Assembly: GCA_013813875.1 (NCBI GenBank)
Contig: JACCQZ010000165.1
Coordinates: 1-39,844, forward strand
Source: Gemmatimonadales bacterium
GTDB lineage: Bacteria > Gemmatimonadota > Gemmatimonadetes > Gemmatimonadales > GWC2-71-9
DNA length: 39,844 nucleotides
Reading direction: 5' to 3'
How positions within the stretch are numbered: position 1 is the first letter of the stretch; each line of letters opens with the position of its first letter. Shown in pieces: positions 2,710 through 20,409 of this stretch. Below the pieces are notes generated by a model, which saw only the letters and a list, made by a program, of their open reading frames with translations, searched no databases and had not been told where the DNA came from. A program made the position numbers and the translations under genes.

Positions 2710-2737
2710 ATTATGAGCAAAAGTGTATACAAGTCCA
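2710..2737 (-). promoter_or_regulatory. Candidate promoter of the S12-VanX gene
   Basis: Read on the minus strand: -35 TGGACT (2737-2732, 4 of 6 consensus), a 16-base spacer and -10 CATAAT (2715-2710, 5 of 6). The TGTATACA palindrome fills the spacer next to the -35, a placement expected for a repressor site. The predicted leader to the ATG at 2613 is about 90 bases. Confidence 0.45.
2724..2731. promoter_or_regulatory. Putative GntR/FadR-type operator 1 (TGTATACA)
   Basis: A perfect 8-bp palindrome. FadR-subfamily GntR regulators are known to recognise sites of the form yGTM-(N0-1)-KACr, which TGTATACA fits exactly. The same octamer recurs at 5529 and 15058, also intergenic and next to genes of the same theme. 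The GntR gene begins about 280 bases away. Binding is inferred. Confidence 0.6.
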
Positions 2738-3014
2738 GGTACAGCTTGTATGTCACCGCGGAAATGCGCAAGAGGGTCCGAGAGAATCCGGGCGCGGGCC
2801 AGGGTGGGTACCGGGTCCAATCTCAGCTCGGATCGGATGACGTCGCCTGGAGAGGGGGAAGCGTGAGTGAGGCGAGTCCCGGAACCGCAAGGGCGTGCTC
2901 GACGTTCGGCAGAGTCGTCCCCCGGCTCGACAACCGGCCGAGGACGGTGCTATCGTTGCCACCTCGACTACGTTGCTCGATCCGGGAGACCTCGATGTCC
3001 TTGGTCCGATTCCA

Positions 3015-3758
3015 GTGAGTGGCCCCGCCGCCAGGGTGCGCAAAGGCGTCGCCGCCCGCCCCGCGGCGATCGCCCGCGGCGAGCGCCCGCTGGTGGTCTA
3101 CGAGCAGCTGCGCGATCTGATCGTGCATGGCCACCTCGCGCCGGGCGGCCGGATTGTCGAGAGCGACGTGGCCGCGCGGCTCGGCGTGAGCCGGACGCCG
3201 GTACGCGGCGCGTTGCAGCGGCTGCAACAGGAGGGGTACATCGTGGACGCCTCGGGCGGCCGACTGGCTCGCCCGATGGTTGCCCCGCTCACCAGTGAAG
3301 ATGCTCGGGAGCTGTTCCACATGGTGGCCGAGATCGAGGGACTGGCGGCTCGGTGGGCGGCGGCCCGCCCGACGGGTGAGCGCCGGACGGTGGTCCGCGT
3401 CCTTCGCGCGCTCAACGCGGACTTCCGCCGCGAGGCGGAGATCCGTCGCCCCGACTTCAACCGGCTGCACGACCTCGACACCAGCTTTCACCGGAGCTAC
3501 GTCGAAGCCGGCGCCGGCCCCAGGCTGCTCGCCCTGCACACGATCATCAAGCCCCAGGCGGAGCGCTACGAGCGGCTGTACCTGAGCCTGCTGGTGAGCG
3601 ACCTCAAGAGCTCGGTCGCCGAGCACGAGGCCATCGCGGCCGGCATCGAGCGAGGAGATGCCGACGCCGCCCAGCGCGCGGTCCAGACCAACTGGCGGAA
3701 TGCGGCCGGACGGCTGGAGCGCGTGATCGATCGTGCCGGTGAGCGGGGAAGCTGGTAG
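3015..3758 (+). CDS. GntR-family transcriptional regulator (FadR/FCD subfamily)
   Basis: A 247-residue DNA-binding regulator. The GntR winged helix-turn-helix covers residues about 26-95 (recognition segment DVAARLGVSRTPVRGALQRL at 51-70, then the beta-wing). Residues 97-230 form an all-helical FCD ligand domain with the DxxxH pair D155/H159 and H204 of the usual metal site. The last His of that site seems replaced (TNW where family members often have an H), so ligand binding may differ. The GTG at 3015 is chosen because it gives the usual family length; the frame is open upstream to a GTG at 2895, so a longer start is possible. It lies between divergent peptidase genes and is the only one-component regulator near the three TGTATACA sites, so it is the likely regulator of the cluster. 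The effector could be a D-amino acid or short peptide, which is inference. Confidence 0.88.
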   Translation: MSGPAARVRKGVAARPAAIARGERPLVVYEQLRDLIVHGHLAPGGRIVESDVAARLGVSRTPVRGALQRLQQEGYIVDASGGRLARPMVAPLTSEDARELFHMVAEIEGLAARWAAARPTGERRTVVRVLRALNADFRREAEIRRPDFNRLHDLDTSFHRSYVEAGAGPRLLALHTIIKPQAERYERLYLSLLVSDLKSSVAEHEAIAAGIERGDADAAQRAVQTNWRNAAGRLERVIDRAGERGSW

Positions 3759-3762
3759 GCCG

Positions 3763-5475
3763 CTACCGGGACCTGCGCTCGAAGCGCAGGCCCTGGGTCC
3801 GGCCGGCGGCCAGGGTGAATCCATCCACCCGGCCGGCCCTGCGCGTAAAGCGGAGGGTGAGGCCGTACACGGGATACTCGAACTCGTCTCGAAGGGTCGG
3901 CTCGAGCTTCGCGGTGGGCAGGTTTCTGGCATGGAGCACCAGCGCTCCCCGTTCCATCACGATGCGGTATGTGCTTCGCAGCTCGGGGCTGAAGTACTCG
4001 CCGACCAGGCTGTCGAGCCCCGCAGCCGAGGGCCGCACCGGAACGATCGCCTCGAAGGTGGTTTCTCCCAGACCAGGTCCGGAAAGACTGATACGCCGCG
4101 GGCTACCGGACCGGCCAGGCACCAGCCGAAGTCGGGCGTCGAATCCGATCGGGCGAAACTCCGTCGCGCTCACCGGACGAAGCTCGATGGCGGCGCCCGA
4201 GTACCGGAGCTCCAGCTTCCGGCCGGCCAGGACGATGCGGGCCACGGCCCCCCGGGTCGAGTCGCGGTAGGTGCCGACGGCCGCACGGAGCCGCTCCGGT
4301 GGGAGCGTCACCGCGCTCGCCCCCGCGCTATCCCCATCCCCTTCCGCCTGTCCGTCGCGCGGCCCCAGCCGGTCAGCCAGATAGATATCCGCCACCTCCT
4401 GCGCCAGCCCGTCGGGATCCGCCGTCCCCAGGTTGCAGAGGCACGCCACCGACACATGCTGGGTGGGGAACCGGAGCAATTGCGACCGATAACCTGCCCA
4501 GGATCCGCCGTGTTCCACCGTCTGCAGCCCGCGGTACGTTCCGACGAAGAGGCCCGCGGCATAATCCAGCGGGTCCCCGCCGTCGAGCTTTCCGGGCTGG
4601 ATCATCCGCGCCAGCACCGCGGGGCCGCCGACCCTGGCGGAATAGAAGTTCTCGTCCCATTGCAGCAGGTCCTCGACGGTGGTGAAGACCGAGCCGTCCC
4701 CGGTCTGCTCGAAGTCCGACATCTCGATCCGGAAAGGGCCGGCGCTGTCGGCGGCGACATAGCCGGTGGCTCGGTTGGGCACCACCATCCCGTGGTCGTC
4801 GTGGAAGTGGCTGTGGGTCATGCCGAGCGGCTGGAAGATCCGGGCGTGGGCAAAGCGGCGCAGCGACTGCCCACTGACCCGCTCCACCACGAGCGACAGC
4901 AGGAAGTAGCCCGAGTTGCTGTACTGCCACTGGCTGCCGGGCGGGAAGTTGAGTGCCCGCTGGCGCACGATGAGGTCGAGCGCGTCGTCATCGGTCGTCC
5001 AGTTCTCGGTTCGCTCGCCGGCCAATGTGAACAGCGTGGTGTAGTCGCGGATCCCGCTGGTGTGGTGCAGCAGGTGACGGATCGTGATCGGCGCGCCATA
5101 CGATGGGAGCGAGGGGACGTACCGGCGAACCTCATCATCGAGCCCCAGCTTTCCTTCCCTCGCCAGCAGCAGGACGCTCATGGCCGTGAACTGTTTCGAC
5201 GTCGAGCCGATATCGAACACCGACGCCGGGGTGAGCGGCGCGCCAAGCTCGAGGTTCCCGCTCCCGTAGCCCTTGGCGTATACGACGCGGCCGTCGCGGT
5301 ACACTCCCAGGGTGCATCCCGGCGAGTTGGGGCGGTCGTATCGGGCGAACACCGCGTCCAGCCGGCGGGCCATGCTGTCCGGCACGGCGCCCTGGCCCGC
5401 CAATGCCCCGGCGTGCAAGCCCGCGAGCGCGGCGGCGGCGAGCAACCTTCCCATCCAGCGAGCGGGTGAGCCCAT
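3763..5475 (-). CDS. Secreted S12 (beta-lactamase-fold) serine hydrolase
   Basis: A 570-residue exported protein. The signal peptide is residues 1-28 (AxA-like end ALAGQ). The S12 catalytic domain spans about 35-370: SxxK at S91-T-S-K94, YSN at 185-187 and HGG at 322-324. The rest (about 380-570) is a beta-rich C-terminal domain usual in S12 D-aminopeptidase or esterase relatives. The family includes D-Ala-D-Ala carboxypeptidases, D-aminopeptidases and esterases, so the substrate is not fixed by sequence. The ATG at 5475 is chosen because the signal peptide starts there; the frame is open further upstream but crosses the operator. It is convergent with the GntR gene (4-base gap) and divergent from the next S12 gene, sharing the operator at 5529. 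Confidence 0.9.
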   Translation of the reverse strand: MGSPARWMGRLLAAAALAGLHAGALAGQGAVPDSMARRLDAVFARYDRPNSPGCTLGVYRDGRVVYAKGYGSGNLELGAPLTPASVFDIGSTSKQFTAMSVLLLAREGKLGLDDEVRRYVPSLPSYGAPITIRHLLHHTSGIRDYTTLFTLAGERTENWTTDDDALDLIVRQRALNFPPGSQWQYSNSGYFLLSLVVERVSGQSLRRFAHARIFQPLGMTHSHFHDDHGMVVPNRATGYVAADSAGPFRIEMSDFEQTGDGSVFTTVEDLLQWDENFYSARVGGPAVLARMIQPGKLDGGDPLDYAAGLFVGTYRGLQTVEHGGSWAGYRSQLLRFPTQHVSVACLCNLGTADPDGLAQEVADIYLADRLGPRDGQAEGDGDSAGASAVTLPPERLRAAVGTYRDSTRGAVARIVLAGRKLELRYSGAAIELRPVSATEFRPIGFDARLRLVPGRSGSPRRISLSGPGLGETTFEAIVPVRPSAAGLDSLVGEYFSPELRSTYRIVMERGALVLHARNLPTAKLEPTLRDEFEYPVYGLTLRFTRRAGRVDGFTLAAGRTQGLRFERRSR

Positions 5476-5527
5476 GAGACGACTCCGGCCGGTGGGCCAA
5501 TTGGGGTGTGTCAAAGTGTATCCGAAA

Positions 5528-7546
5528 ATGTATACAGGATCCCTCCGCCGACAAGTCCGCTCCCGGCCACGATTGCTGCTCCCGGCGGTGGTCGGCGTCA
5601 TCCTGGCCTGCTCGCCGGAGCAAACGTCTGATTTCGCCCCGCCGGGGCCGCCGGCGGCCAGAGCGAGCCCCGCCGAGCCGCCGATCGCCACCGCCGCGGT
5701 GCTCGAGCGGGGCAACGTGGAGGCCTGGCTCGATGGGTACCTCCCCTATGCCCTCCAGCGGGGCGACGTCGCCGGAGCGGTCGTGGTGGTAGTCAAGAAT
5801 GGAGAGATACTGCTCCAGAAGGGCTACGGCTACGCCGACGTCGAGGCGCGCATCCCGGTAGATCCGAGGGTCACGCTCTTCCGGCCCGGCTCGGTCTCCA
5901 AGCTTTTCACCTGGACCGCGGTCATGCAACTGGCTGAGCAGAGAAAGCTCGACCTCGACCGCGACGTCAATCAATACCTCGATTTCACCATCCCGCCCGC
6001 CTTCGGTGCGCCGGTCACCCTGCGGAATCTCATGACCCACACCCCGGGATTCGAGGAGGTCAACAAGAACGTCTTCACCAGCGACTCGACCGGGATCATG
6101 CCGCTGGACGCGTTCCTCAAGGGTTGGGTGCCCACCCGGATCTTCCCGCCGGGCCGGGTACCCGCCTATTCGAACTACGCCACCGCCCTGGCGGGATACA
6201 TCGTCCAGCGGGTCTCGGGCGAGCCCTTCGAAGACTATGTGGAGCGGCACATCTTCGCTCCGCTCGGCATGAAGCATTCGACGTTCCGGCAGCCGTTGCC
6301 GGCGCCGCTCGCGGCCGCCATGGCGAAGGGCTATGACGTGGCGTCGGGCGAGCCGAAGCCGTTCGAGGTGGTGATCCCGGGGCCCGCCGGAAGTCTGAGC
6401 GCCACGGGCGAGGACATGGGGCGCTTCATGATCGCCCACCTGCAGGACGGACGGTACGGCGACCGGAAGATCCTCCAGCCCGAGACCGCGAGGAGGATGC
6501 ACACATCGGCGCTGACGATCCTCCCGGCGGTCAACCGGATGGTGCTGGGCTTCTACGAGACCAACCGCAACGGGCGCCGCGCCATCGCTCACGCCGGCGA
6601 CACCTACCTCTTCCATACCGACCTGCACCTCTTCATCAACGACGGGTTAGGCATCTACATCTCGCTGAACAGCGCCGGCAAGGACGGGGCGAGCGGCGCG
6701 ATCAGGAGCGCCCTGTTCGAGCAGTTCGCCGACCGCTACCTGCCGGGCGAGGAAACCGCCGGCCGGGTGGACCCGGAAACCGCCGAGGCGCATGCCCGGC
6801 TGATGGCCGGCACTTACGAAAACTCGCGCCGGTCGGAGTCCAACTTCTTCAGCGTGCTGAGCCTCCTCGGCCCGGCCGAGGTGACGGTCAACGAGGATAC
6901 GACCATCAGCCTGGGGCTGCTCACCGGCCTCGGGGGCGAGCCGAAGCGGTGGCGGGAGACGGCGCCGTTCGTCTGGCGCGAGGTGAACGGCAAGAACGTG
7001 CTCTCGGCCCAGGTGGAAAGCGGGAAGGTGGTGATGCTCAGTGGCGACGAGGTTTCCCCATTCATGATGTTTCTGCCGACACCGTGGTGGAGATCGCCGG
7101 TGTGGCTGACTCCGCTGGTGTCGTCGGCGATCGCGGCGCTGCTGCTCTCTCTGCTGTTCTGGCCGATCGCGGCGTTGGTCCGCCGGCGTTACCGGGCTCC
7201 CTCCCCGCTCCTCGGGCGCGACGCAGCGGCACACCGACGCATGCACTTCGCCGCGGCGGCGGTGCTCATCGTCCTCCTGGCGTGGGGCGCCAGCTTCATG
7301 AATATGCTCTCCGACATCTCGGCGCTCTCCTCGGAGGGAGATCCCTGGCTCTGGGTGCTCCAGCTCCTCAGCCTGGTGGTGTTGCCCAGCGCGGCGGCCG
7401 TGGCGCTGTGGCACGCCTGGGTGATGTGGAGCGGAAAGCGGCGGTGGCCTGCCCGGATGTGGAGCGTCGTGCTCGCTTTGGCCTGCTTCACGCTGCTCTA
7501 CGTGGCGCTTGCGTTCAAGTTCATCGCCTTCGACGTCAACTACTGA
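5528..7546 (+). CDS. S12 serine hydrolase lipoprotein with C-terminal membrane domain
   Basis: About 672 residues. The N-terminus is a lipoprotein signal (Arg-rich n-region, hydrophobic core, lipobox ILAC with Cys28). The S12 domain (about 60-410) has SxxK at S122-V-S-K125, YSN at 214-216 and HAG at 355-357. A linker region (415-515) is followed by four predicted membrane helices near 526-551, 574-594, 606-630 and 643-665, so the catalytic part faces the periplasm. The start is uncertain: the ATG at 5528 overlaps the operator, another in-frame ATG lies at 5474, and a TTG near 5573 is possible. The D-aminoacylase gene follows after 13 bases with its ribosome site over this stop codon, so the two form an operon. 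Confidence 0.88.
   Translation: MYTGSLRRQVRSRPRLLLPAVVGVILACSPEQTSDFAPPGPPAARASPAEPPIATAAVLERGNVEAWLDGYLPYALQRGDVAGAVVVVVKNGEILLQKGYGYADVEARIPVDPRVTLFRPGSVSKLFTWTAVMQLAEQRKLDLDRDVNQYLDFTIPPAFGAPVTLRNLMTHTPGFEEVNKNVFTSDSTGIMPLDAFLKGWVPTRIFPPGRVPAYSNYATALAGYIVQRVSGEPFEDYVERHIFAPLGMKHSTFRQPLPAPLAAAMAKGYDVASGEPKPFEVVIPGPAGSLSATGEDMGRFMIAHLQDGRYGDRKILQPETARRMHTSALTILPAVNRMVLGFYETNRNGRRAIAHAGDTYLFHTDLHLFINDGLGIYISLNSAGKDGASGAIRSALFEQFADRYLPGEETAGRVDPETAEAHARLMAGTYENSRRSESNFFSVLSLLGPAEVTVNEDTTISLGLLTGLGGEPKRWRETAPFVWREVNGKNVLSAQVESGKVVMLSGDEVSPFMMFLPTPWWRSPVWLTPLVSSAIAALLLSLLFWPIAALVRRRYRAPSPLLGRDAAAHRRMHFAAAAVLIVLLAWGASFMNMLSDISALSSEGDPWLWVLQLLSLVVLPSAAAVALWHAWVMWSGKRRWPARMWSVVLALACFTLLYVALAFKFIAFDVNY
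5529..5536. promoter_or_regulatory. Putative GntR/FadR-type operator 2 (TGTATACA)
   Basis: An exact copy of the palindrome seen at 2724 and 15058. It lies 53 bases upstream of the minus-strand S12 gene. On the plus side it overlaps the likely ATG (5528-5530) of the lipoprotein S12 gene. A half-site-like GTGTATCC at 5516-5523 sits beside it. A protein bound here could block both divergent genes. Confidence 0.6.
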
Positions 7547-7559
7547 GGAACGCACGCGG

Positions 7560-9173
7560 ATGAGCATCTGTCGGCGAGCATGGGGCCGGGCCGCCGCGCT
7601 GGGTTTGTTGGCGGCGTGCGCGGGAGCGGTGGGCGGAACTCCCCGGCCGGCGACGCTCATCGTCAACGCGACAGTGGTAGACGGTACCGGCGCCGAGCCC
7701 CGAGGGGCGAGCGTACGGATCAGGGGTGACCGCATTCTCGCGCTCGGCGATCTCCGCCCCGAGCCTGAAGACAGCATCGTGAATGGGGCGGGCCTGGTGC
7801 TCGCGCCCGGCTTCATCGACACGCACAGCCACGCGGACGGGGACATCTTCGACCACCGCGACGCCCTCGCCGCGGTGAGCCAGGGCATCACCACCGCCGT
7901 GGTGGGCCAGGACGGAGGTTCGGCCGATACGCTGGCCACGTTGTTCGCGCGCCTGGCGCGCACCCCGCCGGCGATCAACTTCGCCAGCTACGTCGGGCAC
8001 AACACCGTGCGGGCCCGGGTGATGGGGCCCGACTATCGGCGCCGCGCCACAGCGGACGAGGTGAGCCGCATGCAGGCGCTCGTGGGCCAAGGCATGGGTG
8101 ACGGGGCCCTGGGGCTCTCCACCGGCCTGGAGTACGACCCCGGCATCTACTCCGACCGAACCGAGGTACTGGCACTCGCCAGGACGGCGGCTGAGTTCGG
8201 CGGGCGCTACATCAGCCATCTCCGGAGCGAGGACCGAGGCTTCTGGGATGCCGTGGACGAGATCATCGCGATCGGCCGGACCACCGGTATGCCGGTGCAG
8301 ATCTCCCACACCAAGCTGGCCATGCGAAGCCTCTGGGGTCAGGCCGACTCGCTGCTGGGGGTGCTCGACCGGGCTCGGGCCGCGGGCGTGAATATCACGG
8401 CCGACATATATCCCTACACGTATTGGCAGTCCAACCTCGCGGTGCTCCTGCCGGAGCGGAACTTCGACGACCGAGCGGCGGTGCAGTTCGCGCTCGACCA
8501 GCTCGCCCCGCCCGATGGCCTCCTCCTCTCGCTTTACGCCCCCGAACCGTCATACGTGGGGAAAACGGTGGCCGAGATCGCCCGGCTCAGGGAGACCGAC
8601 CCCACCACGGCATACCTCGACCTCATCCGCCGCTCCGAGGCGTTCCGGGCAGACCGCGACCGGCGGAACCCGGCTGCGTCCTCCCAGCCGGTGGACATGG
8701 TCATCGGCACCAGCATGGTCGAGCCTGACCTCGAGCGGATCATGGCCTGGCCGTTCACCAACTTCTGCACCGATGGATCGCTGGTGGACCGGCACCCCCG
8801 GGGTATCGGATCCTACCCACGAGTCCTCGGCCGGTACGTGCGCGAGCGGCATGTGCTCAGCCTGACCGAAGCGGTACGCAAGCTGTCCGGTCTCGCGGCC
8901 GCCAACGTGGGTCTCGGGGACCGGGGGACGATCGCTCCGGGGACATACGCCGACCTCGTGCTGTTCGACCCGGCCACCGTCGCGGACCGGGCGGACCGCG
9001 AGGATCCACGCGCGCTCTCGGTCGGCATCCGCACGGTGTGGGTGAACGGGCGTGTGGTTTACCAGGATGGTCGGACGACGGGGGTATTCCCGGGCCGCGT
9101 CGTCAGACGAGGGGTGCCTCCGAACCCGCCATCCCGTCGTCTCAAATCGCCGCCAGCATCTCCCGCGGAATGA
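7560..9173 (+). CDS. N-acyl-D-amino-acid deacylase family lipoprotein
   Basis: A 537-residue amidohydrolase-superfamily enzyme with a lipoprotein signal (lipobox LAAC, Cys20). The family removes the acyl group from N-acyl-D-amino acids. Metal-site residues seen: HSH at 89-91, H220 (SHLRSE), H250 (SHTK) and D405 (CTDGS). The position of the bridging Cys of the Alcaligenes enzyme (GNCG) is Asp118 here (GQDG), so the metal site may differ. The ATG at 7560 is supported by GAGGAA, which overlaps the stop of the upstream S12 gene. Together they would cleave peptides and free D-amino acids outside the cytoplasm. N-acyl-D-Glu or D-Asp specificity cannot be excluded. Confidence 0.9.
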   Translation: MSICRRAWGRAAALGLLAACAGAVGGTPRPATLIVNATVVDGTGAEPRGASVRIRGDRILALGDLRPEPEDSIVNGAGLVLAPGFIDTHSHADGDIFDHRDALAAVSQGITTAVVGQDGGSADTLATLFARLARTPPAINFASYVGHNTVRARVMGPDYRRRATADEVSRMQALVGQGMGDGALGLSTGLEYDPGIYSDRTEVLALARTAAEFGGRYISHLRSEDRGFWDAVDEIIAIGRTTGMPVQISHTKLAMRSLWGQADSLLGVLDRARAAGVNITADIYPYTYWQSNLAVLLPERNFDDRAAVQFALDQLAPPDGLLLSLYAPEPSYVGKTVAEIARLRETDPTTAYLDLIRRSEAFRADRDRRNPAASSQPVDMVIGTSMVEPDLERIMAWPFTNFCTDGSLVDRHPRGIGSYPRVLGRYVRERHVLSLTEAVRKLSGLAAANVGLGDRGTIAPGTYADLVLFDPATVADRADREDPRALSVGIRTVWVNGRVVYQDGRTTGVFPGRVVRRGVPPNPPSRRLKSPPASPAE

Positions 9174-10471: not shown

Positions 10472-11659
10472 TCAACCGAGCGCCGCGGCCGCCCGCCGCG
10501 CCGTCTCCGCCAGCACCGCGGCGCCCACAAAGACGCTCTCCTCCGCCGCGTAGAATCCCGGCGAGTGCGCCGGCGCATAGGCCCCGCCCGGCTCGCGGGC
10601 CCCGATGCGCAGAAAGCAGCCCGGCAGCCGCTCCAGATAAAAAGCGAAGTCCTCGCCTCCCATATTGGTGCCCGCCATCGGCATCTCGGCCCCGGGGCCC
10701 AGAACCGCTCGAATGGCCTCGCGCGCCCAGGCGGTGGGGCCGGGTGGATTCACCAGCGGCGGCGTGCCCCGGGCAAATTCGACCCGCGCCGTGAGGTGAT
10801 GCGCCGCGGCCAGCCGTTCCGACACGTGGCGCAGCTCCTCCAGCAGAAAGGCGCGGGACGCGGGATCCACCGCGCGTATCGTGCCCGTCAGCGTCGCCCG
10901 GTCGGGGATGATGTTGTCCGCGGTGCCCGCATGCACGGTGGCCACCGTTACCACACCGGGGATGGCTGGGTCGAGCCGGCGGGCGATGAGGGTCTGGATG
11001 GCGCCGATCAGAGCACCCGCTCCGACGATGGGATCGGCACATTCGTGCGGGCGGGCGCCGTGCCCTCCAGCCCCGGTAAGCTCGACTTCGAAGAAGTCGG
11101 CGGAAGCGGCCACCGGCCCCGTCTGGGCCACGACCTGCCCGACTTCGTATCGCCGGTCCACGTGCGCACCAAAGATGGCCGACACGCCGTCGAGCGCGCC
11201 GCTCCCGAGCACCGCCGCGGCCCCTTCCGCCACCTCCTCGGCCGGCTGGAGCAGGATCACCACGTCCCCTTCGGCCGGCGCCTCGCGCAGCAGCATCGCC
11301 GCCCCCACCGCCCAGGTCGCGTGAACATCGTGGCCGCACGCGTGCATGACGCCAGGGATCTCGGAGGCGAACGACAATCCGGTCGCTTCCCGGATCGGCA
11401 GCGCGTCAATGTCGCCCCGGATCGCCACGGCCGGCGCGCCCGCCCGGCGGCCGGGCAACCGCGCTGTGACGCCGGTGCCTGCGATGCGGCGGACCTCGGT
11501 AGCGCCGATCGCCGTGAGTGCGTTTACCAGGCGGGCGGCGGTGCTCTCCTCCTGCCACGACAGCTCGGGGTGCCGGTGCAGGTCGCGTCGGAGGGCGCCG
11601 AGCCACTCCTCTTCGCCGTCCGCGAACCCCTGTGGGCTCACGCGAGGGTGCGACGTCAC
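10472..11659 (-). CDS. M20D amidohydrolase (hippurate/N-acyl-amino-acid hydrolase-like)
   Basis: A 395-residue metallohydrolase of the M20D group. Metal-site signatures: GDIDALP (82-88), MHACGHDVH (C108, H110, D111), QPAEE (E141/E142) and GAHVD (H166). The dimerisation domain carries GGHGARPH, and GEDFAFYLE is in the C-terminal part. The GTG at 11659 is preferred: GGAG precedes it, it starts right after the stop of the GNAT gene at 11662, and it gives the family's usual length. It is the last gene of the racemase-permease-GNAT operon. In the described D-to-L pathway an M20 enzyme hydrolyses the N-succinyl-L-amino acid; that role is inferred from the company it keeps. Confidence 0.9.
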   Translation of the reverse strand: MTSHPRVSPQGFADGEEEWLGALRRDLHRHPELSWQEESTAARLVNALTAIGATEVRRIAGTGVTARLPGRRAGAPAVAIRGDIDALPIREATGLSFASEIPGVMHACGHDVHATWAVGAAMLLREAPAEGDVVILLQPAEEVAEGAAAVLGSGALDGVSAIFGAHVDRRYEVGQVVAQTGPVAASADFFEVELTGAGGHGARPHECADPIVGAGALIGAIQTLIARRLDPAIPGVVTVATVHAGTADNIIPDRATLTGTIRAVDPASRAFLLEELRHVSERLAAAHHLTARVEFARGTPPLVNPPGPTAWAREAIRAVLGPGAEMPMAGTNMGGEDFAFYLERLPGCFLRIGAREPGGAYAPAHSPGFYAAEESVFVGAAVLAETARRAAAALG

Positions 11660-11661
11660 CG

Positions 11662-12522
11662 CTACTCCCGCGCGAGGTGATAGAAGCCCTGTCCGTCGCC
11701 GCGGTGAAAGCCGCTGACTCGGTACCCGCGCTTCAGATAGCGAAGGAACGCCGCGCGGGTGCTCTCGCGCCATGCCCGCGCAAGATCGGGCGTGCGGGCC
11801 ACCACTTCGTGAATGTCACCGGGAACGACGATGTAGACGTCACCGGCCCCGTCGCCGGCCGCCGCGGCCTCACCTGCCGGGTTCATTTGGTTGACGACGG
11901 GTGTGGGCGAGGACGGGTCGGGGATGCCGCGTCCCCGCGGCGCCGGTGGGGCCTCGGTCGTGAGGTCCCAGGCGACGATGAATCGATCGGTACCCACCGC
12001 GGAATGAAGCGCGCTGCCCGTATCCACACCGTACATGTCCGGAACATAATCGGTGATGCTGGCCCCGAGCGCGTTCAGGTTGAGATGAGCGTTTCTCGCC
12101 ACCAGCGGGTCGAAGGTCCACAGCATCCGGGTGACGCCGATGGGAATCACCGCCGACCGCTGAAACAGCTTGAGCCGGCGCCCGACGCCACGGTCGCGGG
12201 CCTCGCACCGCACCGCCAGCAGATCCGACCAATGGACCAGGCGGCCGTCCTGCACCCCGGTCATGCCGAACACGAAGCCGAGCATCCCGCCGTGTTGGCC
12301 GGAGAACGCGGCGGCGGTCACCCCGCCCAGATACTGGCTGACGCGAAAGATCGTGCTCGGCACCCGCTCGGTGAAGCCCATGCCCCAGGTCTCGTACTGT
12401 ATCCGCACGCACTCGTCGTACTCCTCCTGGGATTCGACCCGGCGGATGATTATGCCGTCCGATTCCGGATGGTCGGAGCTTGCGGCAGGATCGGCCTCGT
12501 GCCTGGTCTGCGTGTTGGTCAT
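11662..12522 (-). CDS. GNAT-superfamily acyltransferase-like protein (COG3375 type)
   Basis: A 286-residue protein with a GNAT fold at residues about 24-200. The acyl-CoA loop is RDRGVGRRLK (109-118), followed by the conserved segment FDPLVARNAHLNLNALGA (137-154) typical of the COG3375 group. The C-terminal part (after 215) is proline- and alanine-rich, then has a short conserved end. Its ATG overlaps the permease stop (ATGA), which means coupled translation. Members of this group are encoded beside N-succinylamino-acid racemases and are reported to transfer a succinyl group from succinyl-CoA to D-amino acids. Its place between permease and M20D fits the first step of that pathway. The acyl donor is not visible in the sequence. 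Confidence 0.85.
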   Translation of the reverse strand: MTNTQTRHEADPAASSDHPESDGIIIRRVESQEEYDECVRIQYETWGMGFTERVPSTIFRVSQYLGGVTAAAFSGQHGGMLGFVFGMTGVQDGRLVHWSDLLAVRCEARDRGVGRRLKLFQRSAVIPIGVTRMLWTFDPLVARNAHLNLNALGASITDYVPDMYGVDTGSALHSAVGTDRFIVAWDLTTEAPPAPRGRGIPDPSSPTPVVNQMNPAGEAAAAGDGAGDVYIVVPGDIHEVVARTPDLARAWRESTRAAFLRYLKRGYRVSGFHRGDGQGFYHLARE

Positions 12523-13898
12523 GCGCTCGGCTCTCCAGCGCGAGTGGATACCATGACCCTGGTGGCGTTCGCTCCGCGCCGGCGCCAGACGAGATACGCC
12601 GGCGAGCCGAGCAGCATGACACCCAGGCCAACCGCCGCGCGAGCGGGCTGGGCCACGATGGTGTTCACCACGACGGCGGCGGCCGCGACGGCGAAGAGGA
12701 TCGGTGTGACCGGGTAGCCGGGGACCCGGAAGGGGCGCGCGGCCGCCGGCTCCCGGATGCGGTAGCTGAAGATGCTCAGAGCGCCGAGCGCGTAGAAGAT
12801 CCAGCCGATGAACACGACGTAGGTCAGCAGTTGCTCGAAAGTTCCGGTAGCCGCGAGGAGCATCGACCAGAGGGCGCACGCGAGGATAGCGAAGGCCGGG
12901 GTGCCGTACCGGGGATGGATTTCGGCGAGCTTGCCGAAGAAGACGCCGTCGCGCGCCATGGCAAAGAACGCCCGCGGGGCGGTGAGCATGATCGCGTTGG
13001 TGGCACTGAGGATCGACACCAGGATCATCACGGCGACGAGTTGCCCGGCGGCCGGCCCGAAGAGGGCCGTCGCCGCATCGGCCGCGACTCGGTCCGACCG
13101 GGCGACACCGGCGGGCCCCAGTGCCGCAAGATAGGCGATGCTGGCCAGCAGGTAGATCAGGATCAGCGCGACGGTACCGGCCACAATGCCGCGATGGAAG
13201 GTCCGCTGCGGGTCCTTCGCCTCGCCGGCCGAATAGGTGACGTACTGCCATCCCTCGTAGGCCCAGAGGGTCGCGATCATGGCGAGTCCGAGGCCCGAGA
13301 GCGCCGGACCGGACGCTTCACTCGGCGGAAGGCCGGCGGGAGCAGCGTCCAGCCCGTTGCCCCGCATCAGAAACAGCCCACTCATCACCAGAATGCCGAC
13401 GAGCTTGAACAGGGTCGTCCAGTCCTGGATCCGCGCGCTGCCGCGGGTGCCCCGCACGTTGATGGCGGCGATCGCGGCGATCATGCCGACCGCCGCCGCG
13501 CGGGACGCCAGCGGGCCGAGGGGCACGAACTGGCCGAGATAGGAGACCGACGCGACCGCCAGGGTGGCCACCGAGCCGCTGCCGATGATGAAGAACAGGG
13601 TCCAGCCGAAGAGAAAGGCGGGAAACCGGCCGAAGGCATCGCGGATATAGACGTAGAGCCCGCCGGCCTTGGGGTGCATGGCCCCGAGCTCGGCGTAGGT
13701 GAGCGCCCCCAGGAGCGACAGCACTCCCGCGGCGAGCCAGACCAGGAGAGACGCGCCGACCGACCCTCCCGACTGACGCAGCACGGCCCCCGGCACGATG
13801 AAGATCCCCGAGCCGATGACGGACCCGATCACGATGTAGGTGAGTTGCCGGACTCCGAGGATGCGGGTCAGGGCGGAGGGAGCGGACTTTCCGGTCAC
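12519..13898 (-). CDS. APC-family amino-acid permease
   Basis: A 459-residue inner-membrane transporter with about 12 hydrophobic helices. The N-terminal signature of amino-acid/polyamine/organocation permeases is clear: IGSVIGSGIFIVPG at residues 24-37 (unwound helix 1 with GSGIF), then ALTYAELGAMHPKAGGLYVY. Later helices carry SATNAIMLTAPRAFFAMARD. The GTG start at 13898 overlaps the racemase stop (GTGA), and its own stop overlaps the ATG of the GNAT gene, so the three are one translational unit. It would bring amino acids or small peptides into the cytoplasm; the neighbours suggest D-amino acids, which is inference. Confidence 0.93.
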   Translation of the reverse strand: MTGKSAPSALTRILGVRQLTYIVIGSVIGSGIFIVPGAVLRQSGGSVGASLLVWLAAGVLSLLGALTYAELGAMHPKAGGLYVYIRDAFGRFPAFLFGWTLFFIIGSGSVATLAVASVSYLGQFVPLGPLASRAAAVGMIAAIAAINVRGTRGSARIQDWTTLFKLVGILVMSGLFLMRGNGLDAAPAGLPPSEASGPALSGLGLAMIATLWAYEGWQYVTYSAGEAKDPQRTFHRGIVAGTVALILIYLLASIAYLAALGPAGVARSDRVAADAATALFGPAAGQLVAVMILVSILSATNAIMLTAPRAFFAMARDGVFFGKLAEIHPRYGTPAFAILACALWSMLLAATGTFEQLLTYVVFIGWIFYALGALSIFSYRIREPAAARPFRVPGYPVTPILFAVAAAAVVVNTIVAQPARAAVGLGVMLLGSPAYLVWRRRGANATRVMVSTRAGEPSA

Positions 13899-15028
13899 CG
13901 GGTCCGCCGCAGCCGTTCTTCCCGCATGGTCAGGCGTACAATGCGCTCGCGATCCACCGCCACGCCGATTCCCGGCTGCTGAAGCGGCACCCGCATCAGC
14001 CCATCGCCGCTCATGACCCACTCCGGCGTCACGATGTCTTCGGTCCAGTACCTCGAGCCCGGCGAGAGGTCGCCGGGCAGGACGAAGTTCGGAAGCGACG
14101 CCAGGGCCACATTGTAGGCCCGGCCCACGCCACTCTCCAGCATGCCGCCGCACCACACCGGGATCTGGTTACGCTGGCACAGGTCGTGAATTGCCAGGGA
14201 GGGACCGAATCCGCCGACCCGGCCCGGCTTGATGTTGACGATGCGGCCGCTGCCGAGTGCCAGCATGTCCTCCACCCGCTCGACCGAGGTGATGGACTCG
14301 TCGAGGCAGATCGGCGTTCTCAGCCGGCGTTGCAGCGCCGCGTGCCGGGCCAGATCGTCCCAGGCCAGCGGCTGCTCGATCATCATGAGGCCGAGCTCGT
14401 CCAGCTCCAGCAGCGGAGCGGCGGCGCCCAGCGTGTACGCATTGTTGGCATCGGCCATGAGGGGGGCCTCGGGGCCGAGGGCCTCGCGCACCGCGCGAAT
14501 GTACTCCACGTCGGCGCCGGGCCCGATCTTGATCTTGATCTTGCGATACCCCGCGAGGGCCGCCCGGCCGGCCCGCTCCACCAGCGCGGCCGGCGTCGTC
14601 TGGATGCCGAGCGAGATACCCACCTCGACGCACTCGCGGGCGGCCCCGAGACGGGCCGCGAGCGGTTGGCCGAGGCGCTCGGCGTCGAGCGCCCACATCC
14701 CCATCTCGACTGCGGCTTTGGCCATCAGATGGCCGCGGAAATGACGCTCTAGAGCAGGGAAGACCTGGGCCGGCTCGTCGAAGGTTCGATTCAGGACCCG
14801 GGGCGCGACCCAGTTTCTGATGGCGAGCCAGGCGGTGTCGATCGCCTCGGAGGTGTAATTGGGTTCCTCGGGGGCGACGCATTCGCTCCAGACGCTGACG
14901 CCGTCCGCGTCCTCCAGCTCCAGCAGGAGAATGCGGCGCACCGCCTGGGTGCCGGAGGAGATCCGAAACGGCTCCTTCAGCGGGAGCTGGATCTCGCGGA
15001 GGGTGAGCTGCTCGAGCCGTAGCGTCAC
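13895..15028 (-). CDS. N-succinylamino-acid racemase / o-succinylbenzoate synthase-like enzyme (enolase superfamily)
   Basis: A 377-residue MR/MLE enolase-superfamily enzyme. The KxK catalytic motif is in YRKIKIKIGPG (K165, K167). Magnesium ligands are D193 (MADANNAY), E218 (IEQP) and D243 (LDES), and the second catalytic Lys is K267 (NIKPGRVGG). The stretch GGMLESGVGRAYNVALASLP (292-311) and the following LPGD are hallmarks of the NSAR/OSBS group (often labelled MenC), not of dipeptide epimerases. No menaquinone genes are nearby. The permease, GNAT and M20D partners instead match the NSAR pathway, in which the enzyme epimerises N-succinyl-D- to N-succinyl-L-amino acids. The start is a GTG with a weak ribosome site. 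It is the first gene of the operon, 29 bases from the operator at 15058. Confidence 0.92.
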   Translation of the reverse strand: MTLRLEQLTLREIQLPLKEPFRISSGTQAVRRILLLELEDADGVSVWSECVAPEEPNYTSEAIDTAWLAIRNWVAPRVLNRTFDEPAQVFPALERHFRGHLMAKAAVEMGMWALDAERLGQPLAARLGAARECVEVGISLGIQTTPAALVERAGRAALAGYRKIKIKIGPGADVEYIRAVREALGPEAPLMADANNAYTLGAAAPLLELDELGLMMIEQPLAWDDLARHAALQRRLRTPICLDESITSVERVEDMLALGSGRIVNIKPGRVGGFGPSLAIHDLCQRNQIPVWCGGMLESGVGRAYNVALASLPNFVLPGDLSPGSRYWTEDIVTPEWVMSGDGLMRVPLQQPGIGVAVDRERIVRLTMREERLRRTR

Positions 15029-15048
15029 CGGCGTGCCCTAGCTAGTGG

Positions 15049-15078
15049 ATTCAAAACTGTATACATTTAATGGAACAA
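15049..15078 (-). promoter_or_regulatory. Candidate promoter of the racemase-permease-GNAT-M20D operon
   Basis: On the minus strand: -35 TTGTTC (15078-15073), an 18-base spacer and -10 TTGAAT (15054-15049). The TGTATACA palindrome lies inside the spacer, as in the S12-VanX promoter. The leader to the GTG at 15028 would be only about 15 bases. Confidence 0.4.
15058..15065. promoter_or_regulatory. Putative GntR/FadR-type operator 3 (TGTATACA)
   Basis: The third exact copy of the octamer. It sits in the 142-base gap between the minus-strand racemase operon and the plus-strand S12 operon, so a single site could control both. The surrounding bases are AT-rich compared with the window, as expected of a promoter region. 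Confidence 0.62.
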
Positions 15079-15170
15079 TGGTCATCCACAGGTGTGGGCG
15101 CAAGGGGCCGGCCGGGCTCCCGGCCCCGGTGTCAGCGGCGCCGCCCTCGAACCGTCCAGCGGAGCGGAGC

Positions 15171-16979
15171 ATGAGACTCGTCGCCGTTCTTATCCTCACT
15201 CTCTTGAGCCGATCGGTCCCGGCCGGGGCTCAGGGCAAGCCGCTCCAGGACCTCGACGCCTACATCACCCGCAGCATGGCGGAGTGGCGGATCCCGGGGC
15301 TGGCGATCGCCGTGGTGCGGAACGACTCGGTGGTGCTGCTGAAGGGTTACGGGGTGAAGCGGCTGGGTGCGGCCGAGCCGGTGGACGAGCGCACCCTCTT
15401 TGCCATCGGCTCCTCGTCCAAGGCCTTCACCGCGCTGGGCGTGGCGATGCTGGTGGATGAGGGGAAGGTCCGCTGGGACGATCCCGCCACCAAATACCTG
15501 CCGGGGTTCCAGCTCTTCGATCCGTACGTGACCCGCGAGCTCACCGTGCGCGACCTGCTCACCCACCGGAGCGGGTTGGCGCGCGGGGATCTGATGTGGT
15601 ACGCCCAGGATCTCCCGCGGGACAGCGTCCTGCACCGGGTCCGGTACCTGAAGCCCACCTGGAGCCTTCGGGCTCACTTCGGCTACCAGAATATCATGTA
15701 CCTCGCGGCCGGCCAGCTCACCGCACGGGTGGCCGGCAAGTCATGGGACGAGGTCATGCGGGATCGCATCCTCACCCCGCTCGGCATGAGCTCCAGCAAC
15801 ACCAGCGTCAGCGAACTCCATCGCCTACCGAACGTAGCCACGCCGCACGAGGAGGTTGACGACACGGTGCGGGCCGTCCCGTACCACAACATCGACAACG
15901 CCGGCCCTGCCGGGTCTATCAACTCCAACGTGGTGGACATGGCGCAGTGGCTCCGTTTTCAGCTCGCCGGTGGAAAGGTAGGCGGAAAGCCGCTTCTGAG
16001 CGCGGGCGCCTTCGACGAGACCCACACACCCCAGACCATCGTTCGCCTCGAAGGGGCGTGGAAGCTCATAATGCCGGATGCGCACTTCGCCGCCTACGGT
16101 CTGGGCTGGCTCCTCCACGATTACCGGGGCCGTAAGATCGCTCAGCACGGAGGAGGCATCGACGGAATGCACGCGCTGGTGGGTCTGATGCCCGAGGAGA
16201 AGACCGGAGTGGTGATCCTCACAAACCTAGCGGGCAACTCTCTTACCCACGCCCTGATGTACCGGATCTTCGATGCGTATTTGAAGCAGCCCCGGAAAGA
16301 CTGGAGCACGGAGCTATTGAAGGGACTCGAGGCGCTGGAAGCCCAAGCCAAGGCCGAGAAGAAGAGCCGTGAAGTTCAGCGGGTAACGGGGACATCGCCT
16401 TCACTGAGCCTGGACAAGTATGCGGGAACCTACGCGGACAGCATGTACGGCGAGGCGACGGTGGGCGCCAACGGCGGCAAGGTGGTCTTGCGATACGGGT
16501 CCATGACCGGCGACCTCGAGCATTGGCAGCACGACACCTTCCGCTCGCAGTGGCGGCAACGGCACCACGGCAAGGCCTTCGTCACCTTCGGCCTGGACGC
16601 CGGCGGCAAGGTGGACGAGATGGAGGTGGAGGACCTGGCCGAGTTCAAGCGCAAGCCGGAGGTCCCCGACACCGTTCCGGCGCTGCAACTGGCGGAAGCC
16701 GCCCTGTCCAAGTACACCGGCAGTTTCGCGGCCGCCTCGCTGCCGGTCACCGCCGAGGTCCAGGTGGTCGGGGGTCGGCTCAAGCTGACCGTGGCCGGGC
16801 AGCCGCCGTACACCCTGATAGCCGTTACTCCCACCCGGTTTCGACTCACCGGCCCCGCGGACATGCCGGCCGGCTTCTTTCTCGACTATACCATGAAGGG
16901 CGAACGTATCGACCACGTGACGCTGGTGCAGCCGGAACCGCAGCCGGCTCTGACGCTCCTCCCGGGTACCACTCAATGA
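15171..16979 (+). CDS. Secreted S12 serine hydrolase with DUF3471 domain (copy A)
   Basis: A 602-residue exported hydrolase. The signal peptide ends near residue 20 (PAGAQ). The S12 domain (25-400) has SxxK S81-S-S-K84, YQN at 172-174 and HGG at 326-328. A DUF3471 domain follows (about 420-500, with YGEATV and LEHWQHDTF), then a further beta domain. The ATG at 15171 has GGAG 7 bases upstream. Its stop overlaps the next ATG (ATGA). It is a close paralogue of the gene at 18586, with long stretches of almost identical DNA. It is the first gene of the plus-strand operon after the shared operator at 15058. The substrate is unknown; the family includes D-stereospecific peptidases. Confidence 0.92.
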   Translation: MRLVAVLILTLLSRSVPAGAQGKPLQDLDAYITRSMAEWRIPGLAIAVVRNDSVVLLKGYGVKRLGAAEPVDERTLFAIGSSSKAFTALGVAMLVDEGKVRWDDPATKYLPGFQLFDPYVTRELTVRDLLTHRSGLARGDLMWYAQDLPRDSVLHRVRYLKPTWSLRAHFGYQNIMYLAAGQLTARVAGKSWDEVMRDRILTPLGMSSSNTSVSELHRLPNVATPHEEVDDTVRAVPYHNIDNAGPAGSINSNVVDMAQWLRFQLAGGKVGGKPLLSAGAFDETHTPQTIVRLEGAWKLIMPDAHFAAYGLGWLLHDYRGRKIAQHGGGIDGMHALVGLMPEEKTGVVILTNLAGNSLTHALMYRIFDAYLKQPRKDWSTELLKGLEALEAQAKAEKKSREVQRVTGTSPSLSLDKYAGTYADSMYGEATVGANGGKVVLRYGSMTGDLEHWQHDTFRSQWRQRHHGKAFVTFGLDAGGKVDEMEVEDLAEFKRKPEVPDTVPALQLAEAALSKYTGSFAAASLPVTAEVQVVGGRLKLTVAGQPPYTLIAVTPTRFRLTGPADMPAGFFLDYTMKGERIDHVTLVQPEPQPALTLLPGTTQ

Positions 16980-18589
16980 TCCGAGCCGCCTTTCCCCGGG
17001 CCATCTGCTCGCTCGGGATCCTCTCCGGCCTGAGCGCGTCGGCGCTGCTGGCCCAGGCCTCGCCGCCGGCGGACCTCGACGCCTACGTATCGGCCGCGCT
17101 CGATAGCTTCGCTACCCCCGGGGCTGCAGTCGCGATCGTCAAGGACGGCCAGGTCGTGCACGCGAAGGGATACGGCGTCCGCCGGCTGGGGGAGCCCGCG
17201 CCGGTGGACTCGCACACGCTCTTCCAGATCGCATCCAACACCAAGGCCTTCACCACCGCCGCGCTGGCCATGCTGGTGGACGAGGGGAAGCTCGCGTGGG
17301 ATGACCCGGTGACGAAGCACCTGCCCTGGTTTCAGCTCTCCGATCCCTACGTCACGCGCGAACTCACCGTGCGCGACCTGCTGGTCCATCGCAGCGGCCT
17401 CGGCCTCGGCGCCGGTGATCTCCTCTGGTACCACTCCGATTACCCGCGCGACAGCATCGTCCGCCGCATCCGCCATGCGAGGGTCGCGTCGAGTTTCCGG
17501 AGCGAGTTCGCCTACGACAACGTGCTCTATGTGGTCGCGGGAGAGGTGATCCCCGCCGTCACCGGCCTGAGCTGGGAGGATTTCATCCGGCAGCGCATCT
17601 TCGTCCCGCTCGGCATGCGCGAGGCGCGGGTCACCGCCAAGGGCGTCCGGCCGGGTGACAACTCCGCCTCCGCGCACGCCAGGGTGGAAGGCCGCCTCAC
17701 CGCCGTCGCCCGCGACACCTTCGACGCAACCAACGCCGCCGGCGGCGTCGTTGCCGGGGTGTCCGACCTCGCGAAGTGGATGCTGGTGCAGCTCGATTCG
17801 GGTCGGGTGCGGGGAAGCACCACCGGGGCCAGCAGCGGGCCAGTGCCCCCGCTGTGGAGCACCGAACGCACCGCGGAGATGTGGTCCGGGCAGACGATCC
17901 AACCGATCAACGAGCTGGGGCCCTCCCTCGCCGGGTACCGGCCGATGTTCCTCCTCTATGGACTGGGGTGGGACCTCCGCGACTACCGCGGCCGCAAGCT
18001 CGTCACCCATACCGGCGGGCTCGACGGGATGACCTCGCGGACGCTGCTGGTGCCGGAGGCCAGGCTCGGCATCGTGGTGCTCACCAACGGCGAGTCACCG
18101 CTCAGTACCGCGGTGGCTTGGCGGGTGCTCGATCACTACCTGGGAGTGCCGCCCACGAACTGGGTGGCCAGGATGGCGGAGTTCGTGCGGGCGCGGGAGG
18201 CCGAGGCACGTGAGATCGAGCGCAAGGCCGCCGGCTCACGACGGCGGGATTCCCGGCCCTCGCTCCCGCTCGCGAGGTACGCCGCCCGGTACAGCGACCA
18301 GATGTACGGAGACGTCACCATCGTGCGGCAGAACGGGCGTCTGGTGCTGCGCTTCAGCCACTCGCCCGCGCTCACCGGCGATTTGGAGCACTGGCAGTAC
18401 GACACGTTCGTGGCGCGGTGGCGCCAGCGAAACATCCCAGATGCCTACGTGACGTTCGCGCTGGGGCCGGATGGCTCGATCGAGACGATGAAGATGGCGG
18501 CCGTCTCTCCCCTCGCGGATTTCAGCTACGATTTTCAGGACCTGCTTTTCAGGCCGGCGCAGGCGGCCGACAATCGGAGTGAACCATGA
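16976..18589 (+). CDS. Secreted S12 serine hydrolase with DUF3471 domain (divergent middle copy)
   Basis: A 537-residue exported S12 hydrolase with a signal peptide (residues 1-27, ALLAQ). Motifs: SxxK S87-N-T-K90, YDN at 180-182 and HTG at 345-347. A DUF3471-type segment (LEHWQYDTF) lies near 465. It lacks the last 70 or so residues present in the flanking copies. It overlaps both neighbours by ATGA, so all three are translated from one message. It is clearly homologous to them but much more diverged, which suggests an older duplication and a different substrate. Confidence 0.92.
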   Translation: MIRAAFPRAICSLGILSGLSASALLAQASPPADLDAYVSAALDSFATPGAAVAIVKDGQVVHAKGYGVRRLGEPAPVDSHTLFQIASNTKAFTTAALAMLVDEGKLAWDDPVTKHLPWFQLSDPYVTRELTVRDLLVHRSGLGLGAGDLLWYHSDYPRDSIVRRIRHARVASSFRSEFAYDNVLYVVAGEVIPAVTGLSWEDFIRQRIFVPLGMREARVTAKGVRPGDNSASAHARVEGRLTAVARDTFDATNAAGGVVAGVSDLAKWMLVQLDSGRVRGSTTGASSGPVPPLWSTERTAEMWSGQTIQPINELGPSLAGYRPMFLLYGLGWDLRDYRGRKLVTHTGGLDGMTSRTLLVPEARLGIVVLTNGESPLSTAVAWRVLDHYLGVPPTNWVARMAEFVRAREAEAREIERKAAGSRRRDSRPSLPLARYAARYSDQMYGDVTIVRQNGRLVLRFSHSPALTGDLEHWQYDTFVARWRQRNIPDAYVTFALGPDGSIETMKMAAVSPLADFSYDFQDLLFRPAQAADNRSEP

Positions 18590-20409
18590 GAACCATCGCG
18601 CAGCTTCTCTTCGCCCTCCTCGTCCTGGCTCCATGGGGGGCCACCGCCGGCGCACAGGCGCGGCCGCTGCAGGGGTTCGACGCCTACGTCAGCCGCAGCA
18701 TGGCGGAGTGGAAAATGCCCGGCCTGGCGATCGCCGTGGTGCGGAACGACTCGGTGGTGCTGCTGAAGGGCTACGGGGTGAAGCGGCTGGGTGCGGGCGA
18801 GCCGGTGGACGAGCGCACCGTCTTCGCCATCGGCTCCTCGTCCAAGGCTTTCACCGCGCTGGGTGTAGCGATGCTGGTGGACGAGGGGAAGGTGCGCTGG
18901 GAGGATCCGGCCACGAAGTACCTGCCGGGCTTCCAACTCTTCGATCCCTACGCGACCCGCGAGCTCACCGTGCGCGACCTCCTCACCCACCGGAGTGGGT
19001 TGTCGCGCGGGGATCTCGTCTGGTACGCGCTGGATATCCCACGGGACAGCATCCTGCACCACGTCCGGTACCTGAAACCGACCTGGAGCCTCCGCTCCCA
19101 CTTCGGATACCAGAACCTCATGTACCTGGCGGCGGGCCAGCTCACCGGTCGGCTCACCGGCAAGTCGTGGGACGAGATCATGCGGGACCGCATCTTCAGA
19201 CCTCTCGGCATGAGCTCCAGCAACACCAGCGTCAACCGACTCGATCGCCTGCCCAATGTGGCCGCGCCGCACGAGGAGGTCGAGGACACGGTGCGGGCCG
19301 TCCCGTACCACAACATTGACAACGTCGGTCCGGCCGGCTCCATCAACTCGAATGTCTCGGATATGGCGCAGTGGGTCCGCTTTCAACTCGCCCGAGGGAA
19401 GGTCGGTGGCAAGCCGCTCCTGAGCGCGGGCGCATTCGATGAGACCCATACTCCCCAGACCATCGTCCCCCTCGAAGGAGCGTGGAAGCTCATGATGCAG
19501 GACGCGCACTTCGCCGCGTACGGCCTGGGGTGGTTCCTGCATGACTACAAGGGCCGGAAGATCGTGCAGCACGGCGGGAACATCGATGGAATGAGTGCGC
19601 TGGTGGCGATGATGCCGGAGGAGAAGACCGGGCTCGTGATCCTGACCAATCTGGGCGGCAACTTCCTGACCTACGCCCTGATGTACCGGGTATTCGACGC
19701 CTATCTGAAGCAGCCCCCGAAGGATTGGAGCGCGGAGCTGTTGAAGGGCCTCGAGGAGCTCGAGGCCCAGAGCAAGGTCGAGGAGAAGAACCGCGAAGCT
19801 CAACGGGTGAAGGGGACCTCGCCGACGCTGGCGCCGCAGAAGTATGCGGGAACCTACCTGGACAGCATGTACGGTGAGGCCACCGTCCGCGCCGAGCGCG
19901 GAAAGCTGGTCCTGCATTACGGGTCCATGATCGGTGACCTCGAGCACTGGCAGCACGACACCTTCCGCTCGCAATGGCGGCAACGCCATCAGGGCAAGAC
20001 GTTCATTACCTTCGGCCTGGACGCGAACAGCAAGGTGGAGGAGATGGAGGTCGAGGATGTGGCCGAGTTCAAGCGCAAGCCGGAGCTCGCCGACACGACC
20101 CCGGCGGTGCAACTGGCGAAAGCCGACCTGCCCCGGTACACCGGTACCTTTGCGTCCGCTTCGCTGCCGGTTACAGCCGAGGTGCAGGTAGTCGGAGATC
20201 AGCTCAAGCTCACCGTTTCCGGGCAGCCCCCGTACACGCTGGTGCCGGTCACCCCGACTCGCTTCCGGCTCAGCGGCCCGGCGGACATGCCGGCAGGGTT
20301 CTTCCTCGACTACACCATGAAGGGGGGACGGGTCATTCACGTGACGCTGGTGCAGCCGGAGCCGCAGCCGGCCATGACGCTCCTCCCGCAGCGCGGGGCG
20401 GGGCGGTAG
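18586..20409 (+). CDS. Secreted S12 serine hydrolase with DUF3471 domain (copy B)
   Basis: A 607-residue paralogue of the gene at 15171, with the same layout: signal peptide (1-24, AGAQA), S12 domain with SxxK S84-S-S-K87, Y175-Q-N177 and H329-G-G331, then DUF3471 and a terminal beta domain. It starts with an ATGA overlap. Large parts, including the segment before the SxxK motif and the LEHWQHDTFRSQW segment, are nearly identical to copy A in DNA, so the duplication is recent or kept alike by gene conversion. The next gene, a D-aminoacylase-like lipoprotein, starts 8 bases after the stop. Confidence 0.92.
   Translation: MRTIAQLLFALLVLAPWGATAGAQARPLQGFDAYVSRSMAEWKMPGLAIAVVRNDSVVLLKGYGVKRLGAGEPVDERTVFAIGSSSKAFTALGVAMLVDEGKVRWEDPATKYLPGFQLFDPYATRELTVRDLLTHRSGLSRGDLVWYALDIPRDSILHHVRYLKPTWSLRSHFGYQNLMYLAAGQLTGRLTGKSWDEIMRDRIFRPLGMSSSNTSVNRLDRLPNVAAPHEEVEDTVRAVPYHNIDNVGPAGSINSNVSDMAQWVRFQLARGKVGGKPLLSAGAFDETHTPQTIVPLEGAWKLMMQDAHFAAYGLGWFLHDYKGRKIVQHGGNIDGMSALVAMMPEEKTGLVILTNLGGNFLTYALMYRVFDAYLKQPPKDWSAELLKGLEELEAQSKVEEKNREAQRVKGTSPTLAPQKYAGTYLDSMYGEATVRAERGKLVLHYGSMIGDLEHWQHDTFRSQWRQRHQGKTFITFGLDANSKVEEMEVEDVAEFKRKPELADTTPAVQLAKADLPRYTGTFASASLPVTAEVQVVGDQLKLTVSGQPPYTLVPVTPTRFRLSGPADMPAGFFLDYTMKGGRVIHVTLVQPEPQPAMTLLPQRGAGR

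Follow-up and report, generated by a model that had tools for sequence, protein, structure and literature searches.

In Geobacillus kaustophilus, an N-succinylamino-acid racemase (NSAR) pathway reportedly converts D- into L-amino acids; Sakai and colleagues reportedly described it in 2006 (Biochemistry 45:4455), with the genes for the NSAR, a GNAT acyltransferase and an M20 deacylase in one operon. Few organisms are known, to our knowledge, in which the physiological role of this pathway has been established. Soil and sediment contain a large pool of D-amino acids that derives from dead cell walls and is consumed slowly. Here, we analyzed a four-gene operon in a 39,844-nucleotide stretch of DNA from a Gemmatimonadales bacterium (the window); it makes up contig C21 of a genome of 3.3 Mb that is 86% complete. 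The relatives used for comparison are Gemmatimonadota, and genome content was assessed by targeted searches. An initial annotation had read the operon as a racemase-permease-GNAT-M20D set for irreversible D- to L-amino-acid conversion and had likened it to the Geobacillus trio. That likeness holds, with NSAR, GNAT and M20 deacylase genes in one operon, and the interpretation as a whole is partly supported. We consider it likely that the operon encodes a variant of the N-acylamino-acid racemase pathway, a kind of pathway that is already known, within a GntR-controlled island for the salvage of D-amino acids and peptides. The GntR regulator, a recurrent palindrome and flanking hydrolases of D-peptides and N-acyl-D-amino acids, all of which the initial annotation had overlooked, are more informative than the operon features annotated initially.

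Compared with the Geobacillus system, the window adds a coupled permease, a linked GntR gene with the recurrent palindrome, and flanking, putatively exported D-peptide and N-acyl-D-amino-acid hydrolases. The window proteins share only about 23-30% identity with GNAT and M20 homologs of the bacillus type (Lysinibacillus, Priestia). A plasmid cluster of Streptomyces sp. NBC_00376 (L179) unites S12/beta-lactamase-like, D-aminoacylase-like, M20, GNAT and NSAR genes; it differs from the window in lacking an APC permease or GntR gene within the stretch and in its Amycolatopsis-type racemase, which has 343 of 357 positions in common with the Amycolatopsis enzyme. The NSAR locus of Deinococcus radiodurans MP1 (L180) likewise combines NSAR and GNAT with transport genes, but these encode ABC-type substrate-binding proteins, and no M20 gene is present in the stretch. 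Three Gemmatimonadota loci (L192, L193 and L194) contain the same five families as the window (GNAT, NSAR, M20D, permease and D-aminoacylase), two of them (L192 and L194) with a GntR ortholog alongside; unlike the window, they keep the canonical order with GNAT first. The loci on CP031730.1 (L182, labelled Stenotrophomonas) and on a Lysinibacillus plasmid (L177) are very similar, and CP031730.1 may be mislabelled or contaminated. The open-licence literature searched held nothing directly relevant on NSAR operons, on GntR/FCD regulators of D-amino acids or on the palindrome as a known operator, and we found in it no account of the coupled permease, the gene order, the candidate regulator, the candidate operator or the distribution throughout the phylum.

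The four genes lie on the minus strand and are joined exactly as initially annotated (Table 1). Read directly from the sequence, the GTG start of the permease gene overlaps the racemase stop (GTGA), the TGA stop of the permease gene overlaps the GNAT start (ATGA), and the TAG of the GNAT gene is followed after a 2-base gap by the GTG of the M20D gene. The order NSAR-permease-GNAT-M20D was found only here and in a sister species of the same genus (G008). The standard order in Gemmatimonadota is GNAT-NSAR-M20D: among the named loci of this phylum, the racemase gene is immediately preceded by the GNAT gene in 49 of 50 and immediately followed by the M20D gene in 36 of 43. Acidobacteriota loci keep the GNAT gene (20/21) and have no M20D gene (0/20). 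Conservation of the trio throughout the phylum shows that the operon is not a chance assembly, and since GNAT-NSAR-M20D is the standard Gemmatimonadota trio, the pathway is not new. Scans of the operon for sigma-70 promoters and terminators gave nothing useful.

The signature shared by NSAR and o-succinylbenzoate synthase (OSBS), which had been ascribed to the racemase, was borne out by family models, residues and phylogeny. With TIGR01928 the protein reaches 311 bits (cut-off 200.65), far more than with the models for DgcA (111 bits) and L-Ala-D/L-Glu epimerase; it also matches PF13378 and PF02746. All catalytic residues are kept, namely the lysines of the KxK motif (K165/K167) and K267 and the metal ligands D193, E218 and D243. 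R270 occupies the place of R266 in the Amycolatopsis enzyme, a second-shell arginine reportedly important for racemase activity; it is invariant in 100 of 100 window-type proteins and replaced by lysine in DgcA-like paralogs. The nearest solved structures are the N-acylamino-acid racemases of Deinococcus and Amycolatopsis. In phylogenetic trees, window-type racemases form a clade (support 100/99) that joins characterized NSARs, bacillus homologs and the Enterococcus faecalis OSBS (support 92/90). The window enzyme is placed next to the NSARs of Amycolatopsis, Deinococcus and Thermus, apart from the dipeptide-epimerase/DgcA enzymes. Subfamily placement by itself does not separate NSAR from OSBS. 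A dipeptide-epimerase or DgcA role was ruled out by the tree and the residues; it better fits a separate paralog on contig C181, which is DgcA/epimerase-like and falls far outside the window-type clade. A third family member, on contig C256 (L115:499-1647), groups with the Kosmotoga structure 3mwc and is of a type widespread in the family; in a relative (L171), its counterpart neighbours amidohydrolase, DHDPS-family and class III aminotransferase-like genes.

The GNAT fold and the M20D assignment were also confirmed, while the COG3375 type given for the GNAT protein in the initial annotation is putative. The GNAT protein had no sequence match in Pfam, NCBIfam or PDB; its AlphaFold2 model (pLDDT 88.9) found GNAT acetyltransferases as best PDB fold matches (E ~2e-8), and an RxxGxG motif is conserved in the alignment. 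Weak homologs (23-32%) occur in the NSAR loci of Lysinibacillus, Priestia, Streptomyces and D. radiodurans. The M20D protein scores 332 bits against TIGR01891 (cut-off 153.75), matches PF01546 and PF07687, and keeps its metal and catalytic residues C108, H110, E141, E142, H166, H200 and H365, among them the cysteine ligand (C108) and the catalytic glutamate (E141).

The permease matches PF13520 and is APC/LAT-like, with 6f2g as the closest solved structure, followed by LAT1, xCT and Asc-1. Its orthologs were found in 52 of 249 genomes. In 9 of the 33 genomes that have both genes, the window itself being counted among the nine, it lies no more than 5 kb from the racemase gene, for which a rough random-placement estimate gives P ~2e-13; the arrangements include GNAT-NSAR-M20D-permease-D-aminoacylase on one strand (L194). 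The statement that this operon adds a permease within the same translational unit is thus true here, while the linkage recurs in Gemmatimonadota and the order alone is special; a permease unique to this locus was accordingly ruled out. In five genomes without a trio racemase (G037, G041, G109, G133 and G168), a GntR ortholog directly precedes one or two permease copies, suggesting that these two genes can also make up a separate unit.

Three copies of the palindrome TGTATACA occur in the window, against 0.00 expected from shuffled sequences, and five in the whole genome. The FCD-type GntR protein scores 54.4 bits with PF00392 (cut-off 27) and 61.9 bits with PF07729 (cut-off 24.3). Among 74 genomes with an ortholog, 34 have it on the same contig as the trio racemase or permease, within about 17 kb (distances assembled by hand). 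In the genus, two genomes have racemase, permease and GntR together, and six lack all three. Exact TGTATACA sites were found no more than 250 bases upstream of the GNAT gene in 23 of 77 Gemmatimonadota loci and in none of 77 interior control stretches. Among loci with enough sequence, those that have a GntR gene as neighbour carried the exact site in 13 of 21 cases, those without one in 2 of 36. The GntR protein encoded at 2895-3758 probably controls the gene set through the TGTATACA sites in three divergent promoter regions.

Of the two genomic copies outside the window, one precedes a TonB receptor gene that adjoins an S15 peptidase-like gene (C319; L229:5313), and the other is next to a further FCD-like GntR gene (C14). 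A second GntR-family gene (L227:5649-6302; 30% identical) has its own TGTATACA site and adjoins a class V aminotransferase-like gene. In G008, TGTATACA stands ahead of a TonB-dependent receptor gene beside the GntR gene (L224:4113). The TonB-dependent receptor genes preceded by the palindrome are possible further members of the regulon.

From the families, catalytic residues, gene order, conservation, recurrent palindrome and regulator linkage read in the sequence, we infer the following substrates, direction, localisation and regulation. Exported S12 hydrolases, an S12-M15 fusion and a D-aminoacylase-like lipoprotein would act beyond the cytoplasmic membrane to liberate D- as well as mixed amino acids, and the permease would take them up. 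The GNAT protein would acylate the D-amino acid with succinyl-CoA or acetyl-CoA as donor, the racemase would interconvert the N-acyl-D and N-acyl-L forms, and the M20D enzyme would strip the acyl group from the L form and so render the net reaction one-way. Succinyl as the acyl group, D-selectivity of the GNAT and L-selectivity of the M20D protein are putative. Control of the gene set would be exerted by binding of the GntR protein to the TGTATACA sites. With the pathway conserved across Gemmatimonadota and associated with import, release outside the cell, a candidate regulator and a candidate operator, its in vivo role becomes testable.

Alternatively, the genes could serve to break down both D- and L-forms of N-acyl-amino acids that are imported or stem from peptides, the D-aminoacylase cutting N-acyl-D and the M20D enzyme N-acyl-L substrates, with the racemase linking both and the GNAT protein acting as a detoxifying D-amino-acid acetylase. 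In 17 of 47 Gemmatimonadota loci the trio indeed has a D-aminoacylase-like gene next to it, collinear with the permease gene in several, and NSARs, the use of which has been reviewed, accept both N-acetyl and N-succinyl substrates (PMC7431475). However, the conserved acyltransferase in the operon points to synthesis and not only breakdown of N-acyl-amino acids, and the window D-aminoacylase has a lipobox and is probably located outside, so that it would not meet cytoplasmic intermediates. We therefore regard this catabolic role as quite unlikely. The related characterized pathway reportedly runs from D to L and the surrounding hydrolases would release D-amino acids, which argues against an operon that runs from L to D and makes D-amino acids as signals or cell-wall precursors. 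This direction appears very unlikely to us, even though the reaction of the family racemase is reversible, kinetics for both enantiomers being listed (PMC8142540), and the stereochemistry of the M20D enzyme cannot be read from its sequence. The racemase might, finally, act as OSBS (MenC) for menaquinone, given that TIGR01928 is named menC and takes in true OSBS enzymes, and the initial annotation had named placement with menaquinone-pathway OSBS, together with absence of any other menC, as a possible objection. Pathway content speaks against this role, and the objection fails: in this 86%-complete genome no MenB scored over the cut-off (best 152 versus 343 bits), whereas MqnE did (455.7 versus 434.6 bits), and MqnC is partial, the end of the gene lying at a contig end, with a full MqnC in the sister G008. 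The genome thus appears to use the futalosine route, and since this route is present and MenB was not found, there is no evident use for an OSBS. We rejected the MenC role on these grounds as extremely improbable; it is already contradicted here, unless the Men gene set lies in the missing ~14% of the genome. A menC label on trio racemase genes of this kind misleads in futalosine-pathway genomes. The relative G020 (L168, L169) has a menD/B/A/E cluster without menC and no MqnC, with the trio racemase as sole MenC candidate, which suggests a bifunctional NSAR/OSBS in that organism.

Besides the M20D stereochemistry, several points weigh against the salvage island. NSAR enzymes are promiscuous, so that the family fixes neither acyl group nor side chain, and co-occurrence of permease and racemase over the 249 genomes was not beyond chance (p 0.63). 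Two or more mismatches to TGTATACA were seen in 46 of the 77 Gemmatimonadota trio loci, and no Acidobacteriota locus searched carries it. The association of TGTATACA with a GntR neighbour (Fisher p 6e-6) overstates independence, the loci being related. These genomes commonly encode S12 hydrolases, and an S12 match lies near the trio in only 3 of 47 loci; support for a link between S12 genes and trio therefore comes from this genus, from the shared promoter regions and from the Streptomyces parallel. As to the regulatory half of the proposal, TGTATACA could be unrelated to the GntR protein or to operon regulation: 8 of the 21 trio loci with a GntR neighbour are without an exact site, some genomic copies lie within coding sequence, next to clpC, and binding of the palindrome by the regulator is suggested by association. 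Against this, three of the five genomic copies fall into one 40-kb window, all between divergent genes, and the interior controls are free of the site, so that we hold an unrelated palindrome to be unlikely. The salvage island is the most economical account.

Table 1. Operon genes, palindrome copies and flanking genes in the window.
Feature	Position	Strand	Remarks
N-acyl(succinyl)amino-acid racemase, NSAR/OSBS subfamily	13895..15028	-	GTG 15028 to TGA 13895
APC/LAT-type amino-acid permease	12519..13898	-	GTG 13898-13896; stop TGA 12519
GNAT-fold N-acyltransferase	11662..12522	-	ATG 12522; TAG ending 11662; conserved RxxGxG motif
M20D amidohydrolase	10472..11659	-	GTG 11659 to TGA 10472
FCD-type GntR regulator	2895..3758	+	orthologs of it adjoin the trio in related genomes; translation may start further inside
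TGTATACA palindrome	15058..15065		30 bases upstream of racemase start; between operon and divergent S12 hydrolase gene
TGTATACA palindrome	2724..2731		between GntR regulator gene and divergent S12-M15 gene
TGTATACA palindrome	5529..5536		between two divergent S12 genes; overlaps possible start of plus-strand gene
S12 beta-lactamase-like hydrolase fused to M15 D-Ala-D-Ala dipeptidase domain	88..2613	-	probable signal peptide
S12 hydrolase	3763..5715	-	longest open reading frame; start probably near 5475
S12 hydrolase	5273..7546	+	longest open reading frame; start probably near 5528
D-aminoacylase-like amidohydrolase	7509..9173	+	lipobox LLAAC; longest open reading frame
S12 hydrolase, divergent from operon	15045..16979	+	probable signal peptide; start probably 15171
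S12 hydrolase + DUF3471, tandem copy	16973..18589	+	
S12 hydrolase + DUF3471, tandem copy	18586..20409	+	

Besides the S12-M15 fusion, the M15 domain of which keeps both zinc motifs (SRHNRGCAVD and EWWH), the window encodes five S12 hydrolases within 20.5 kb of its start. The D-aminoacylase-like protein matches the solved D-aminoacylases 1rjp and 1m7j in three stretches (E 1e-82). In G008, S12 genes and a D-aminoacylase-like gene are kept on both sides of the locus. The three tandem S12 + DUF3471 genes at 15171-20409 overlap by a few bases, and local duplication is likely.

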